Positions 30,643-60,247 of a DNA stretch of 64,000 bases are shown here, piece after piece. A model generated the notes under the pieces. It was not told the DNA's origin. It was given only the letters and a program-made list of their open reading frames with translations, and ran no database searches. Location of the stretch: positions 1 through 64,000 of the forward strand of contig CAMZAX010000008.1 of the NCBI GenBank assembly GCA_947304355.1, in the 5' to 3' direction. Numbering within the stretch: position 1 is the first letter of the stretch; each line of letters starts with the position of its first letter. The position numbers were made by a program, and so were the translations under genes. This DNA comes from an uncultured Selenomonadales bacterium (GTDB taxonomy: Bacteria > Bacillota > Negativicutes > Selenomonadales > Selenomonadaceae).

Positions 30643-31918
30643 TTATTTCCAAGTCTTCAGGAGCCGTTGCAGATAATCCAAGTCGGTGAAATCTTTCCAC
30701 ATCCAGTTCACGCGCATGACGTTCATCATTTGCGGGATAATTTGCAGGCACGCGCCGCGCAGGTCGTTGACGACGGGATAGGGCAACGGCAACAGATCGG
30801 GCAGTTCGCGAATCAAAAGTCGTGCGTCCGCCAAGCTCATGCCGCCGCTTGCAATGGTGCGGAGAATCGCGACAAGTGACGCCTCCTCGAAAAATTTTGC
30901 GGGTGCGTCGTCGGTCAGCCGTGTCTTGAGATATGCGGCGACTGCGCGACACGTAAGGAACGTTTCCATTTTGCCCGCGTAGAATTGCGGCGGGGTTGTC
31001 GGCACCAGCGTCGGCGACAGGTTTGTTGCCAGCGCGGTGAATAATCGTTCGTCGGCGCGAGACTTGTCGGGCGGTTGGAAAGTTTTTGCTCGCTCCGCGC
31101 GGTAGCGTAAAATCCCGTCGTCGAATTCGTCGTTGCGGTCATTAAATTCCAAATAAGCTTTACGCATTGAATAGACTTGCATATTGCCGTCAGCAGGTCC
31201 GCGAGAAGTCTTTTGCATATATTCTTCGATTGATTTACACAGATAATGGTTGACAACAATTTTTTCGGCAGTCACAGGCTTACCATAGCCGCCCGATACG
31301 GGAATGGCGATTTCATTTATGGAGTAAACATCTGCAAAGTAATAGGGAAAGTGAGGACTGCTTAAAAAATTTATCTTTCGCGGATTGGCGATCGTTTTAA
31401 TGAGAGCATTTGTTTCGCCTTTATCGGGTGTATAATCTTTCGGAGCACGCCGCGTGAATCGTTCAAGGACGCCGCGAGAGTAATCAGCTTTCTCTTGACC
31501 GTTGGAGCCGAAGTTTTGCCAATGAATTGCCAAGCCCGCCGCGTTCGGGTTGGGCGATAAAACTTCGTCGACAACTGTTGCAATAACCCCCCCCCCCGGC
31601 TGATTTTGGGAAGATGAACTCGTCGCCGTCAATGAACGCAATGTAGCGGCTTTGAAACTTGAAACTCTTGACAGCGTCATTGTAAGTCTGAATTTGCATG
31701 AACTTGCCGGGCGCGGAGATATAATCGGCGAGACCCGCCGCAACGTAGGGCTTTGCGATTTCCGCCTGATTGTCGGGGCTTTCGTTGTCTTAAAGATAAA
31801 AATGGTCGACGCCCGCCAGCAAATGATAATCAAGCCACTCCTTGATGTAAGGACCTTCGTTTTTCATGATAGCGACGACAGCCAGGTCGTGCAGGAAAAG
31901 ATTTTTGTCGACAGCCAA
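30643..31918 (-). pseudogene. GT92/GT2-like glycosyltransferase, interrupted by an 11-G tract frameshift and one in-frame TAA (phase-variable OFF or decayed)
   Basis: Reconstructed: (TTG)AVDKNLFLHDLAVVAIMKNEGPYIKEWLDYHLLAGVDHFYL*DNESPDNQ...RYIAFIDGDEFIFPKSAGG[G11]VIATVVDEVLSPNPNAAGLAIHWQNFGSNG... Confidence 0.82.
31587..31597 (-). repeat. Homopolymer C11 on + (G11 on coding strand) within glycosyltransferase
   Basis: caataaCCCCCCCCCCCggctg. Confidence 0.98.
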
Positions 31919-41751: not shown

Positions 41752-41782
41752 AAAATCCCCGTCGATTGGCGGGGAAAAATTT
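41752..41782 (-). terminator. Putative intrinsic terminator downstream of GT8 gene
   Basis: Minus strand CCCCG-CCAATCGA-CGGGGATTTTTTT. Confidence 0.65.
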
Positions 41783-41784
41783 TT

Positions 41785-43022
41785 TTACATTGCCTGAATC
41801 AGCGGGTAGGAGTTGAGCGGGACGCCCTGCGCCTCCGACAAGAACTCCAGCCCGTTGACGAAATCTTTGCCCGGCGTGAAACCCGCTTGCGTCAAAATTT
41901 GGAACGGGAAGTTCGGCAACATGATGAAGAAAACTTTCTTGCCGCGCGCGCGTTTCATGGCGTCAAGCAATTTGTTCAGCGATTCTTGACTGTCCACCGT
42001 GATTATTTCTTCGTCGGCGCGTACCGCGAAAAAATTTTTGAACCCGTCGATGTTATCGGGCGCAACGAAGAAAGCGCGCGTCTTGCCGCTCATAAGAGCC
42101 GTGAGATTTACCATTGACTGCTTAAAGCCGACGTGAAGCTGTTGCACGCTCGCGTAGAGCCGTCCGATTGTCTCCTCGTCGAACCACGGCGTTTGAGCAA
42201 AATATTTCATCCACAGGCGGTTGAACAGGTCGCGCATGTCCATTCCGAAGCCTGCACCCGTAAAATGATAAATTCGTCGATAACAGAGATTTTCATTGAG
42301 GCGGCGAGCTTTGCGAACAAAAGCATTAAATTTCTCGTCCAGTTTAAGATAATTTTTCGAGAAAAGGTAATTGAGGACTTCTTGGTCAAGATATATAAGT
42401 TGCGGATGCTCACCGACAAATTTCACGCCGTCCATCAGGTGTTCATTTTCTTTACGCAAAATTTTTATATTTATCAACAACACGCCGGAATTGAAATAAT
42501 CGTTATAATCGACGAATCCATTGGTTACCAAGTAATTTGATGCGGCGTTACTCGGATGATCGAAGGGATCTGCTCTAACTTCGTCAGCCGCAGCAAGCGG
42601 TTTGTCGCCGAGTTCAACCTGCCAGAGCTCTTTTATGTCAAGATTGACGATTGTATCAGAGTCGAGATAAATGGCTTTGTCGATGTCAGCCGCAAGGAGG
42701 TACGGAATAAAAAAACGATAAAACATTCCGATAGAGAAGCGCGTTTCGGACGCCTGCGGGAACATTTTTTTTATGTATTCGATTTTGTCCGCAAAGAGTT
42801 GTTCGACATTGTAGAACTTGACGAGCTGACCGTAACGCCCCGCCACGTAGGAAAACTTATCGCAGTTTTCGGTCGTCAACGTGTTGTCGTGAAGGATGTG
42901 CACCGTGATTGATGGCGTGGGGGGGGGGGGTTATGGTTTTCAAACATTGACAACATTGCCGTGCCCGTGAATTTGGAGTAACGCCCCGTCTTGTCGTAGA
43001 GACAATAGCAAACGTGAATCAT
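41785..43022 (-). pseudogene. GT8-family glycosyltransferase with C12 tract frameshift (putatively phase-variable, OFF)
   Basis: Start MIHVCYCLYDKTGRYSKFTGTAMLSMFENHN[C12]; downstream frame TPSITVHILHDNTLTTENCDKF... intact to stop; only the tract breaks the frame. Confidence 0.88.
42919..42930 (-). repeat. Homopolymer G12 on + (C12 on coding strand) within GT8 gene
   Basis: gcgtGGGGGGGGGGGGttatgg. Confidence 0.98.
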
Positions 43023-43033
43023 TAAATCACTCC

Positions 43034-44260
43034 TTACATTGCTTTGATAAGCGCATGGGAATCGAGCGGCACGCCCTGCACCTCCGACAGAAATTCCATA
43101 CCGTTGACGAAATCTTTGCCCGGCGCAAAACCCGCGTCCGTCAGTGCTTTGAACGGGAAGCGCGGCAACATGATGAAAAATAATTTCTTGCCGCGAGCAC
43201 GTTTCATGGCGTCGAGCAATTTGTTCAGCGAGTCGTTATTGTCCGCCGTGATTATCTTTTCGTCGTTGCGTATCGAGAAAATTTTTTTGAACGCGTCAAC
43301 GTCCTTGGGCGCGGCGAAAAATTCGCGACGCTTGCCGACCATTGCCGCCGAAAGATTTATCAGCGAGTTCTTCAGCCCGACGTGCACTTGACGGAAGCCC
43401 GCGTACAGTCTGCCGAGCAAATATTCGTCGAACCACGGCGTCTTCATGAAATGCGCCATCCACAGCCGATTCAAGTCGTCGTTCATGTCCAAAGTCAAAG
43501 CCTCAACCGCGTAATGGTAAATCGCCTTGCGCGGCTTGACGTCCTTTGCCCGCGTGCGCTCCACGTCGACGAACACGTCAAATTTCTCCGACAGCTTGAC
43601 GTAGTTGCCCGCGTACAAATAGTTCAGTACGTCTTGATCGGGCCAAGCCATTTGCGGGTGCTCGCTTAAAAATTTCAGACCGCGCCGAATATTTTCTTCC
43701 TCGTGGCGCATGACGTTCAAATTCATCAGCAAGACGCCCGAATTAAAATAATCGTCGTAAGCCACAAGCTTTTGAACGATTAAATATTTTATTTGCAAGC
43801 TGAATTTCAAGCGCACGGGGTCAACAGCCGTTTCATTGGCGGCGGCAAGAGGTTTGTCGCCGAGTTCAATTTGCCACAGCTCTTTTATGTCGAGGTTGAC
43901 GATAATATCCGAGTCGAGGTAAATGACTTTCTCAACGTCCGCCGGAAATAGCTGCGGGATAAAAAATCGATAAAACATTGCAATGCTGTATCGAATTTCA
44001 ATCAAGCCCAGAAAGGTCGTCCTGAGCTCCGCGATTTTTTCCGCGCAGAGCTGTTCGACGTTATAAAATTTCACGTGCTGACCGTAGCGACCCGCAATGT
44101 AAATGAACTTGTCGCGGTTTTCGTTCGACAGCGTATTGTCGTGGAGGATGTGCACCGTGACTTCCGAGTTCGTGTGTTCAAAAATCGAAAGCATCGTCGT
44201 GCCCGTGAATTTGGAATAACGCCCCGTCTTGTCGTAAAGACCGAAGCAAACGTGAATCAT
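43034..44260 (-). CDS. GT8-family glycosyltransferase
   Basis: MIHVCFGLYDKTGRYSKFTGTTMLSIF; MFYRFFIPQLFPADVEKVIYLDSDIIVNLDI (DxD). Confidence 0.9.
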   Translation of the reverse strand: MIHVCFGLYDKTGRYSKFTGTTMLSIFEHTNSEVTVHILHDNTLSNENRDKFIYIAGRYGQHVKFYNVEQLCAEKIAELRTTFLGLIEIRYSIAMFYRFFIPQLFPADVEKVIYLDSDIIVNLDIKELWQIELGDKPLAAANETAVDPVRLKFSLQIKYLIVQKLVAYDDYFNSGVLLMNLNVMRHEEENIRRGLKFLSEHPQMAWPDQDVLNYLYAGNYVKLSEKFDVFVDVERTRAKDVKPRKAIYHYAVEALTLDMNDDLNRLWMAHFMKTPWFDEYLLGRLYAGFRQVHVGLKNSLINLSAAMVGKRREFFAAPKDVDAFKKIFSIRNDEKIITADNNDSLNKLLDAMKRARGKKLFFIMLPRFPFKALTDAGFAPGKDFVNGMEFLSEVQGVPLDSHALIKAM

Positions 44261-50988: not shown

Positions 50989-52595
50989 TTAAGTTTTAGG
51001 TTCAAGTTTTATTTGAATCGCGTTGAGCTTGACGCCGTACGAATAAAGCGTTTCGCCGTTTTTAGCCCAAGGCGTCCATTTGCCGTCGAATTTGTGTACG
51101 CGATAGAGGATATCGGTTTTTTTTGTGCCGGCTTCGTCGAGGCGAATCTTCACGCCGAAAATTGATTTGGATTTGCCGGTGGTGCCCGCAGGTTCGGGAG
51201 CCGCCACTTCATCCGACCAACCTTCCGCATCGCCGTAGTAAACAGCGTAATAAACTTTGTGGATTGAAGAATTTATTTTAATCGCCTGAATGTCCAGCTT
51301 TTGGTCAAGCGAATTGCTGATTTGATTTTCGCCCATCCACACGCTCCAACCGTTTTTGTGGACATGCGTTTGATAACTCAACAACGGTCTGAATACATCC
51401 CAATCGGTCGGCAGAGCATAAGCTGTTATCAAGTCCTCGCGCTTTTTCAGCCGCTCCATGAATGACGAAAAAACCGTGCCGTAAGTCTGTACCAAACTTT
51501 TATTTATTGTGCGACCTTTCGCGGCGGCAAGCCCGACATATTGTAAAAATGCTTTAAAATTATCATTCTCGTCATCGGCGTCGAATTTATCGCCAAAGAA
51601 ACTTTTAAGTTGCTCGCTTAGCAAGAAGCAATGCAAATCATGGCGCACATTGAAAACCGACATGGTCGAATCCACGTAATAAGAATTTATTTCGTGCACT
51701 TGCTCAAGGGTTTGCTGATAGCCCGTAAAAGAATTGACGGAACGCGGAATAAGAATTGTCTCTGTTCCGTCACGCAGGAAAACTGAATTGTGCGAACAAG
51801 ATCCCACCGTCGACACGAAACTTTCCGCGTTTATCAGCAAGTTCAGTTGCTCTTCGAGAGTAAGCTTTTCGGGCGAAATCGTCTCGTAGCCTTTGGACTT
51901 GAAATACTCGGCAAGACGTTCTTCGCCGACTTGTCTCGCGCCGTAAAAATAATAAATTTTTTTGCTTGAAGTCGGCGTGCGATTTTTCAGCGCAAAGTCT
52001 CTTATGCGTTCAATCGTCTCGCGATATTCCGCCGTGAATTATCTGCCCGTATCCGTCAGAAAAAAAGATTCGTCGGGCAAGATTATTTTTTCAAAACGTG
52101 TCGGACAATCAACAGCTTGAAGTCTGTCAAAGTCTACATCCAAAATTTTCAACAGTCGCCTGAAATTTTTTTGACCCTTGAGCGGAGCAGTAGCCCAATT
52201 AATGTAGATGATCGGACAATCCTTGAATTGGTTTTTGAATTCGTCACTTTTCAAGAACCACAAGCGGCTTAGGTTGTCGGTAATTGCATGACCCCAAACG
52301 GGACAAAATATGCCGAGATAAATTACCGTTTTGGAGCTGTGAATAATCGCCGTGGGGGGGGGGTATAAGATTTGCCGGCTCCGTCAAAAACATGACTGCT
52401 TTTAATGAATTCTCCGTTGCCGTCGATAATGCCGCCCGAACCCCATGTCCACTTCCCATCAACCATAATGTCTTTGTGCGGAAGGATAGTGCCGTTCTCT
52501 ATAACGCTGAATCCCAACTCCTTGTCAAGGAAAAAGTCTCTCGCAAAAAAATTTTTCGCGTCGGCGGGATTGTAAAGATAGTCCAAATTAACCAT
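50989..52595 (-). pseudogene. GT61/DUF563-like glycosyltransferase interrupted by a C10 tract frameshift and one in-frame TAA
   Basis: MVNLDYLYNPADAK...VFDGAGKSYTPPP[C10]TAIIHSSKTVIYLGIFCPVWGHAITDNLSRLWFLKSDEF...FFLTDTGR*FTAEYRETIERIRDFALKN...NLLINAESFVSTVGSCSHNSVFL. Confidence 0.8.
52354..52363 (-). repeat. Homopolymer G10 on + (C10 on coding strand) within GT61-like gene
   Basis: cgccgtGGGGGGGGGGtataag. Confidence 0.98.
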
Positions 52596-56339: not shown

Positions 56340-57575
56340 ATGATTCATATTTGCTTCGGTCTTCACGACAGAAACGGACTCTATTCAAAATTCACGGGCA
56401 CGACGCTTTTGTCGGTCTTCGCAAACACCGCGTCGGAAATCACGGCGCACATCCTGCACGACACCACCTTGACGCAAGACAACCGCGAAAATTTCGTTTA
56501 CCTTGCGGGGCGTTTCGGTCAGCGCGTCGAGTTTCACAACGTCGAAAAATTATTCGCCGAAAAAATTTTGGCACCGCTGTCCGAAAAGTTTCAAGCCCTC
56601 TACAGCGAGGCGGCAATGTACCGATTCCTTATCCCGCACGTCTTGCCCGCGACCGTCGACAAAGTGATTTACCTTGATTCGGACGTTATCGTTAATCTTG
56701 ACATCGAAGAACTGTGGCGCATCCGAATCGTCGGCGAGCCGATTGCCGCAGTGCCCGTGTCCTATCAAAATGCCGATATTCAAGCCGGCATAAAGCGCGC
56801 AAGAAAAATGTTCCGCATGTGCGAAGACGGCGGCGTCAAGGCTGCGGAGTATTTCAATTCGGGCGTCCTGCTCATGAACTTGAACAGCTTCCGCGACGAG
56901 GAAGATACCCTAATCAGCGCGATTGAATCGATTGCCGTTTATCCCGAATACGAATTCCTTGACCAAGACGTCTTGAATTACTGCTTTGCGGCGAGGGCGG
57001 TGCGCTTGCCCGTCAAGTTCAATCGCGCCGTGCGTTACGAGCGGACGGAAGGCACAGGCGTCGTCGCGAACAAAATTTATCACTACGCCGGGCAGAATTA
57101 CGCTTGGAGCTTCAATCTCGACATGAAGGACGCGTTCAATCGCCTGTGGATGGATTATTTCATTAAGTCGCCGTGGTTCGATGTGCAGACGATCGGGCGG
57201 CTTTATGAGAGCGTTAAACGTTTGCACATCAACTTGAAAAACGCAATGGTGCAGACTTCGGCGGTAATCAGCGGCAAGACGCGCGTCTTTTTCACCATGC
57301 CGAGTAATTTGGAGGCGACGCGCGAAGTCTTTTCGGTGCGCGACGACGAAGAAATCATTCTTGCCGAATCGGACGCTTCGCTTAACGAATTGCTTGACCG
57401 AATGCACAACGCGCAGGGCAAAAAAGTTTTCTTTATCATGACGACGAATTTCCCGTTCGACGTGCTCACGGAGGCGGGCTTCGTTCGCGGGCGCGACTTC
57501 CTCAACGGCTTTGAATACCTGTCGGAGGCGAACGGCTTCCCGCTGGATTCTCATCGACTTATCAAGGCAATGTAA
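56340..57575 (+). CDS. GT8-family glycosyltransferase
   Basis: MIHICFGLHDRNGLYSKFTGTTLLSVF; KVIYLDSDVIVNLDIEELW. Confidence 0.9.
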   Translation: MIHICFGLHDRNGLYSKFTGTTLLSVFANTASEITAHILHDTTLTQDNRENFVYLAGRFGQRVEFHNVEKLFAEKILAPLSEKFQALYSEAAMYRFLIPHVLPATVDKVIYLDSDVIVNLDIEELWRIRIVGEPIAAVPVSYQNADIQAGIKRARKMFRMCEDGGVKAAEYFNSGVLLMNLNSFRDEEDTLISAIESIAVYPEYEFLDQDVLNYCFAARAVRLPVKFNRAVRYERTEGTGVVANKIYHYAGQNYAWSFNLDMKDAFNRLWMDYFIKSPWFDVQTIGRLYESVKRLHINLKNAMVQTSAVISGKTRVFFTMPSNLEATREVFSVRDDEEIILAESDASLNELLDRMHNAQGKKVFFIMTTNFPFDVLTEAGFVRGRDFLNGFEYLSEANGFPLDSHRLIKAM

Positions 57576-57586
57576 GGAGTGATTTA

Positions 57587-58807
57587 ATGATTCACGTTTG
57601 CTTCGGTCTTCACGACGAAACGGGGCGTTATTCCAAGTTCACGGGCACGGCAATGCTTTCAATCTTCGCGAACACCAAAGCGGAAGTCACTGCACATATT
57701 TTGCACGACGCCACACTGACGCAAGACAACCGCAATAAATTTTCTGCCGTGGCGAATCAATACAATCAACGCGTCGAATTTCACAACGTCGAAGAAATCT
57801 GCGCGGACAAGCTCGCCGAATACGTAAGCCTTGTGCCGTCCGTAAAAGATGCGCCCGTCACGGTCGGAGCGTTCTATCGGCTCGTGCTGACGGAAATTCT
57901 GCCGCCCGACGTTGAGAAAGTCATTTACCTCGACTCGGACGTTATCGTCAATACGAACATTGCCCGCCTGTGGGAAATCGAACTCGGCGACAAAATTTTT
58001 GCTGCCGTCCCCGAAGCCGCCAACGGTATGCTCTTGCAAAAAATCATGCCGCTTTGCCGCGAAGGTTACGTTAAGCCGGAAGATTATTTTAACAGCGGTG
58101 TCTTGCTCATGAACTTGAACAGACTGCGCGGCGAAGGCGAAACCCTCAAACGCGGCGCAATTTTTCGCGGGACACGCAACAACGGCTGTTACGACCAAGA
58201 CATTTTAAATTATCTGTTCGCCGCCGATTACGTTAAGTTACCCGTCGAATTTAATTGTTTCGTGAAATTTAATCGCCGGTTGAATGAAGAAGCCGCCTTC
58301 GGAAAAATTTATCACTACACATACGGCAGGGCGGGCAAAGGACTTACGCTTGACTCGGACGACGCGTTTAATCGCTTGTGGCTTGATTATTTTGCAAAGA
58401 CGCCGTGGTTCAACGCCGAAACGATAAGTCGGCTCTGCGCGGGCTTTCGGCAAGCATACGCCGACTTAACTGTTGCAATGATAAGATTGACGGCGACAAT
58501 GAGCGGCAAGGCGCGGGCGTTCGTCGTGCCCAAAGACGACAGCGACGACATTAAAACGCTCTTCGCCGTCCGCGCCGACGAGGACGTAATCACGGTCGAC
58601 AAATACATCCCGTTGCAGGAGATTTTCGAGCAAATGAATTCGTCACGCGGCAAAAAAATTTTCTTCGTCTTCGTTCGCGACTTCCCGTTTGAAAACTTCG
58701 AGCGATTGGGTTTCGTTCGCGGGCGGGATTTCTTTAACGGTTACGGGTTTTTCTTGGAGACGCAAGATTTTTCGCTTGATTCTCATCGAATAATTAAAGC
58801 AATGTAG
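57587..58807 (+). CDS. GT8-family glycosyltransferase
   Basis: MIHVCFGLHDETGRYSKFTGTAMLSIF; KVIYLDSDVIVNTNIARLWEIELGDK. Confidence 0.9.
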   Translation: MIHVCFGLHDETGRYSKFTGTAMLSIFANTKAEVTAHILHDATLTQDNRNKFSAVANQYNQRVEFHNVEEICADKLAEYVSLVPSVKDAPVTVGAFYRLVLTEILPPDVEKVIYLDSDVIVNTNIARLWEIELGDKIFAAVPEAANGMLLQKIMPLCREGYVKPEDYFNSGVLLMNLNRLRGEGETLKRGAIFRGTRNNGCYDQDILNYLFAADYVKLPVEFNCFVKFNRRLNEEAAFGKIYHYTYGRAGKGLTLDSDDAFNRLWLDYFAKTPWFNAETISRLCAGFRQAYADLTVAMIRLTATMSGKARAFVVPKDDSDDIKTLFAVRADEDVITVDKYIPLQEIFEQMNSSRGKKIFFVFVRDFPFENFERLGFVRGRDFFNGYGFFLETQDFSLDSHRIIKAM

Positions 58808-58894: not shown

Positions 58895-60247
58895 ATGAAT
58901 CAAACGCTTATCGGCATATGCGGCTTCGTTTGCATGGCGGTAATAATGTTGTCTCTGTTCAAAAGTAAAACCGTGCCCGCCGTTGCATTTATCTTGTTCC
59001 CGACAATCCTCGGCATATTTCTGACGACGTGGGGGGGGGCTACTATAGCATTACAGACCTCGGCAACTTAATCAAGGCGGGCTTCGGCAGTACAGCCCCG
59101 ACTGCCGCGCTGTTTATGTTCAGCGTGCTTTATTTCAGCGTGATGAACGAGGCGGGCATGTTCGCCGTTATGGTTGACAGCCTGACGCGGCATATCGGCA
59201 CAAGCGTTATCGGCGTGACAATGATGACGACGATTTTAACGATTGTCGCGCACTTGGACGGTAGCGGTGCCTCGACATTCCTAATCGTTATCCCCGCAAT
59301 GTTGCCGATTTATCGGAAGATGAACATGCGCACGACGACACTTTTGCGCGTCATGGTCTTGCCGATGGGAATAATGAACTTGATGCCGTTGGCAGGTCCG
59401 ACGGTGCGGGCGGCGACGGTTTTGGGCACGGAGACGAGCGTCCTTTGGCAAATGATTCTGCCCGTGCAAATATTCGGAGTCATAATCTGTTTGGCTCACG
59501 GCGTACTTGCGGGCATTCAAGAAAAACGGCTCGGCGCAGGTCTTATCAGCGGACAAGATTTTAAATCGCCCGAAGTCACCGATAAAACTTCACGCGACAA
59601 AAAAATTTTTATCTTCAATGTGCTGTTGACGCTTGCCGTTGTCGTCGCGCTGATTGATACAGAAATTCCCGATTACGTGCCGGTTATGGTCGGCTTGGCG
59701 TTGGCACTCATTGCGAATTACGGATTCGACGCGAAGACTCACAAGAAAATCATAAATAACTGCACACGCCGCGCCCGCGCTCATTATGTGTTCGACACTT
59801 TTGGCGGCGGCAGTTTTGATGGGCATCTTTGTTAAGGAAGTGACGGTTGACGGCGAGAAAATTCCCGGCGTAATTAACTGCATGTCCAATCTTGTCACGC
59901 TGATTTTGCCCGAAACTTTTGGAGAACATCTGCCTGTTATAATCGGCGCGCTCAGTGTACCGCTGGCTTTGATTTTCGACACCAACAGCTATTTTTACGG
60001 TATGTTGCCCGTCATGATTGGTATCGGTGAAAATTTTGGCGTCAGTGCCGAAAGCATAACCGCCGTCATGCTGATTTGCCGCAACTGCGCGACGTTTATC
60101 AGCCCGATGGTTCCTGCCGCACTGTTGGGCGTCGGGCTTGCCGAAGTCGACATAAAAGAGCATATCAAAGCTTCTTTCGGCTTCGCATGGCTTTTGTCGA
60201 TAATCTGTCTGGGTTTCGCCGCGCTGATAAAAATCATTCCGCTGTGA
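58895..60247 (+). pseudogene. CitMHS-family citrate transporter-like gene, frameshifted at a G9 tract and again near 59760
   Basis: MNQTLIGICGFVCMAVIMLSLFKSKTVPAVAFILFPTILGIFLTTW[G9]YYSITDLGNLIKAGFG...KKIINN / HAAPALIMCSTLLAAAVLMGIFVKEVTVDG... Confidence 0.82.
59031..59039 (+). repeat. Homopolymer G9 within CitMHS-like gene
   Basis: gacgacgtGGGGGGGGGctactatagc. Confidence 0.98.

Follow-up and report, generated by a model that had tools for sequence, protein, structure and literature searches.

In a 64-kb window of metagenomic DNA (the whole stretch analysed here), a glycosyltransferase family 8 (GT8) gene is in all likelihood a translational contingency (phase-variation) locus, and the C tract near its start very probably works as an on/off switch controlling a cell-surface sugar. 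The MAG to which the window belongs (as contig 8) comprises 2.4 Mb and is 88% complete. Because its homologues in named records belong to Quinella sp. and other Selenomonadaceae MAGs, from digestive tracts of sheep, goat, buffalo and deer, the MAG is probably to be placed in Quinella (Selenomonadaceae, rumen), as judged by these shared matches.

We infer the following course of events. Slipped-strand mispairing in the C tract would lengthen or shorten it by one base or a few. At frame-keeping lengths, the product would be a complete GT8 enzyme (about 410 aa) in which the tract is translated into a short stretch of prolines within the alpha1-beta2 loop, and other lengths would give a short stump. 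As assembled, the genome is in the OFF state. The likeliest role of the enzyme is the transfer of a sugar onto a glycan at the cell surface, and switching would provide part of the population with a different surface structure, with phage or host avoidance, for example, as a possible benefit.

The C12 tract and the reading frame of the GT8 gene

On the coding (minus) strand of 41785-43022, the sequence runs from MIHVCYCLYDKTGRYSKFTGTAMLSMFENHN into C12 at 42930-42919 (a length taken from the MAG consensus) and continues with TPSITVHILHD in another frame. The tract breaks the frame at codon 31. The N-terminal frame reaches a stop after 48 aa, and the frame downstream of the tract is open for 373 codons, a length which random sequence would reach with a chance of about 1e-7. 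Tract and spacer together amount to a multiple of three plus 2 nt, which puts the gene in frame at 10 or 13 C. The first-pass annotation had located C12 inside this gene, quoted the equivalent strings of three window paralogs, named 10 and 13 C as in-frame lengths and reported no other lesion. Position and tract were confirmed, the quoted strings (all from copies without tract) are exact, the lengths are consistent with the frame arithmetic and the codons downstream of the tract are intact.

The downstream part alone matches PF01501 (Glyco_transf_8) with an E-value of 5.6e-27 and 95.4 bits, against a cut-off of 24.3, and the DxD metal/nucleotide-sugar motif is present in this copy (YLDSDTIVN). 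As in contingency loci, the repeat is longer than composition predicts and lies inside the 5' coding region, and its length decides in which frame the rest of the gene, itself intact, is read. Across the window, 10 matches to C9 were found where shuffles predict 0.07, and there are four C/G runs of at least 9, with lengths of 9-12.

Few bases separate the gene from the adjacent tract-free paralog, and an RBS-like AAGGAG precedes its ATG. The first-pass annotation suggested that this paralog may provide a constitutive activity, but the two proteins share only about 61% identity and may differ in substrate. Since the tract gene ends just before a terminator-like hairpin, the OFF state should leave downstream genes unaffected.

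Table 1. Coordinates of the GT8 tract gene, its parts and related features in the window
Feature	Position	Strand	Basis or remark
C12 homopolymer (G12 on the plus strand), proposed switch	42919..42930	-	Same site is C7-C12 in 26 other Quinella-type GT8 copies
GT8 gene, OFF in the present assembly	41785..43022	-	PF01501 match; dN/dS 0.25 against the neighbour paralog (dS 1.16, near saturation)
GT8 5' part preceding the tract (beta1-alpha1 in the GT-A fold)	42931..43022	-	76% identity with paralog residues 1-33; AF2 model of an ON relative
GT8 3' part, intact, in another frame than the 5' part	41785..42918	-	Open frame
Adjacent tract-free GT8 paralog	43034..44260	-	61% identical to the tract gene; upstream in the same gene run
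Tract-free GT8 paralog	56340..57575	+	One of three window paralogs lacking a tract
Tract-free GT8 paralog	57587..58807	+	One of three window paralogs lacking a tract
Terminator-like hairpin and T run directly 3' of the tract gene	41756..41775	-	Consensus match only; 6 such sites in the region vs 9.9 expected

In an AlphaFold2 model of an in-frame C9 relative (L065:1384-2613, mean pLDDT 85), the prolines encoded by the tract lie in the loop that connects helix 14-28 with strand 37-43, so that the predicted position of the tract is the alpha1-beta2 loop of the GT-A fold. Structural relatives retrieved by Foldseek are WbbM, LARGE1, UGGT and LgtC. In every tract copy the loop is of a longer class (at least 27 nt in frame), compared with 18 nt in 115 tract-free copies. 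The tract is therefore part of an insertion in a loop tolerant of length change, which supports the earlier description of it as an insertion relative to the paralogs, since the tract copies all exceed the common 18-nt class.

The tract site among Quinella GT8 copies

Searching 66 genomes of the genus gave GT8 relatives in 60, from which 173 distinct copies were collected (168 scored automatically, five by eye). Runs of 7-12 C occupy the identical site in 27 copies from 21 genomes. Ten of them are in frame (ON) and 17 out of frame (OFF), an ON share of 37% which fits one third (binomial p 0.69). Among the copies without tract (C<7), 142/146 are in frame, and the four that are not carry C5 or interrupted C runs at the site. 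The association between tract and out-of-frame state reaches a Fisher p of about 6e-14, computed with 3 OFF tract-free copies (the fourth, the last relict, was added afterwards); as the copies are akin to one another this value overstates their independence, a concern limited by the spread of the tract copies over the tree.

Related copies differ in tract length, and both ON and OFF alleles are seen across species and paralogs. Near-identical flanks surround tracts of C10 (OFF) and C9 (ON) in two L198 copies of one genome, of C8 and C10 in L084, again in one genome, and of C8 in L160 vs C7 in L167, from two species. The first-pass annotation had proposed a comparison of GT8 loci in related genomes, and ON-length alleles are indeed present in relatives (the ten copies above). 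Its reading of the gene as an ON/OFF candidate is supported by C7-C12 at the identical site, in ON as well as OFF register, and by OFF copies that are intact and under purifying selection, as detailed below. The C7 tracts of some relatives may be too short for a high switching rate. No further alleles were found in the viral contigs searched.

Two side observations concern the wider set of copies. Tract-bearing GT8 domains lie inside longer open frames at L100:149, L198:983 and L198:4318, the one in L100 apparently as a fusion with a GT2-like domain. A MAG labelled Synergistaceae (L228, contig JAFSUP010000124.1) contains a GT8 array that reaches 87% identity with Quinella copies, by misbinning or recent transfer.

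Among other explanations, decay has to be weighed against the state of the OFF copies. The gene could be a decaying pseudogene, broken once in the tract and with no switching back, as it is OFF in the present assembly and degraded copies with further lesions exist in some relatives (L104, L075_5283 and G070:C1). We regard this as very unlikely: the 13 OFF tract copies that reach their 3' end within the contig all remain open over 360-378 codons, none having a second lesion, in-frame tract alleles exist in ten copies, and dN/dS is 0.17-0.39 in the tested pairs containing an OFF copy. Because a pair containing an ON copy averages selection over both lineages, the two OFF-OFF pairs, with values of 0.22 and 0.39, give the cleaner estimate. 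As judged by these comparisons, purifying selection acts on the OFF copies, which are intact apart from the tract. The out-of-frame length might also be a homopolymer assembly or sequencing error in a gene truly fixed ON, given that the source is a MAG and homopolymers are error-prone. The recurrence of the tract in independently assembled genomes of many projects, in all three frames, and the ON state of the 142 of 146 tract-free copies make such an error most improbable; random miscounting would, besides, still presuppose a long tract.

Transcriptional slippage can arise at long homopolymers, and slippage of RNA polymerase or ribosome on the C run could yield some full-length protein at any DNA length, the tract tuning output. 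That OFF bodies are still under selection would suit this explanation. The tract lengths, however, cover all three frames, as DNA-level drift predicts, and we consider such tuning unlikely in place of a switch, while transcript or ribosome slippage may coexist with DNA-level switching.

Spread of the tract between paralogs

Alongside phase variation through tract length, we considered how the tract came to be distributed among the GT8 copies. A single origin followed by vertical descent was rejected, because the gene-body tree, with 23 tract tips, shows 21 changes of tract status, about as many as with shuffled labels (21.6, sd 1.1). The long loop is clustered on the same tree (28 changes vs 40.4 shuffled). 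Mosaic copies were detected in triplets picked after the alignments had been seen, with p values uncorrected for this choice. In one of them, L174_1278 is 92-100% identical to the tract-free L171_1412 over nearly all of its body, and its nt 87-138 match L172_117 at 16 sites against 1, compared with 7 against 386 elsewhere. Similar patches are found in L172_117 and L198_4318 (25 against 1 and 15 against 0, respectively) and a weaker one in L228_261 (14 against 5). Other triplets gave no mosaic signal, and the search for a conversion donor of the window copy detected no 5' segment from another tract copy.

The scattered tract and the mosaic copies suggest, at the level of sequence, that gene conversion moves a 5' tract segment among paralogs, perhaps alongside fresh expansion of the C run in long-loop copies. 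We see evenly balanced chances that the switch is a mobile cassette, in which the poly-C segment (about nt 50-165) passes from one tandem GT8 paralog to another on short gene-conversion tracts; it would then belong to a phasome spanning this genus of uncultured rumen commensals. A separate rule, by which the tract copy would be the last gene of its tandem array, did not emerge clearly (9/16 last vs 6.0 expected).

Long C/G tracts in Quinella and known switches

C9 nine-mer hits have a median of 12.2/Mb in 65 Quinella genomes vs 0.65/Mb in 60 other Negativicutes genomes, raw counts in which long tracts are counted several times and which vary with base composition across genomes. The window's own genome holds 31 tracts, often in glycan-related genes. 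According to Pfam, they lie in or beside four GT2 genes and genes for FkbM and TylF methyltransferases, a hexapeptide transferase, DUF5672, radical SAM proteins, a GT92-like protein, a CitMHS transporter and a fused cytosine methylase-HpaII endonuclease; the same search gave no match around several tracts, and some may be intergenic. A mutator through MutS loss was ruled out: MutS is present, and there is thus no sign of a mutator.

A G11 tract at 31587-31597 (coding strand, minus) splits a glycosyltransferase family 92-like gene, the N-part of which has a weak PF01697 match (23.2 bits, cut-off 23) in a frame that differs from the downstream open part. At 52354-52363, a C10 tract (minus) splits a gene resembling, by eye, that of a GT61-type transferase, and the pieces on either side of the tract gave no Pfam match; a ChW-domain ORF (50989-51840) follows it. 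A G9 tract at 59031-59039 lies near the 5' end of a CitMHS-type transporter gene and leaves the 5' part in a frame of its own, and this transporter is possibly phase-variable. Elsewhere in the genome, the fused C-5 cytosine methylase and HpaII-type endonuclease (L107:2-2032, plus strand) ends at a G13 tract (L107:2035-2047) and is a possible phase-variable restriction-modification system. In the same genus, the near-complete genome G003 (contigs C8, C13 and C16) greatly exceeds its relatives, with more than 20 GT8 matches together with 370 C9 nine-mer hits, or about 154/Mb.

The closest parallel to the GT8 switch is lgtC of Neisseria, which encodes a GT8 alpha-1,4-galactosyltransferase and carries a poly-G tract (PDB 1G9R). 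The same frame-switch logic is established there, with (G)8-(G)16 alleles in gonococcus (PMC5320596). LgtC shares GT family and fold with the Quinella protein (phmmer E 6e-11; Foldseek E 2e-12, TM 0.75 by target length), and an intragenic homopolymer toggles the reading frame in both. In contrast to lgtC, which belongs to another phylum, the Quinella gene has C in the coding-strand tract, and the tract occurs in some members of a tandem paralog family, whose C-terminal part is longer than that of LgtC. The Quinella tract falls in the alpha1-beta2 loop, and the Gly-rich stretch of LgtC, presumably the poly-G site of lgtC, aligns one loop further on.

At genome scale, Quinella resembles the phasomes of Campylobacter, Helicobacter and Neisseria, in which each genome has long C/G tracts by the dozen that often fall in genes for glycan modification; in H. 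canadensis, 29 tract-associated coding regions are described (PMC2823697). It differs from them in being an uncultured rumen commensal of Negativicutes. A literature search for phase variation through homopolymers in Quinella, Selenomonas or Negativicutes retrieved nothing relevant. The kind of GT8 tract switch is thus known from Neisseria and, as far as we found, apparently not previously described in Quinella, a rumen commensal genus which, with its dozens of tracts per genome, is an unexpected host for it.

Kumar et al. 2022 described two surface types among Quinella cells of one sample, granular or smooth, with or without an electron-dense layer, listed GT8 among the Quinella surface-polymer enzymes and noted a higher abundance of the genus in some low-methane sheep (PMC9585023). 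Phase-variable glycan genes are one testable reason for the two surface types, species differences being another. Transfer of the tract from paralog to paralog may add a twist beyond the known kind of switch: if the mobile cassette is real, not only the on/off state would change over time in Quinella, but also which enzyme is switchable.
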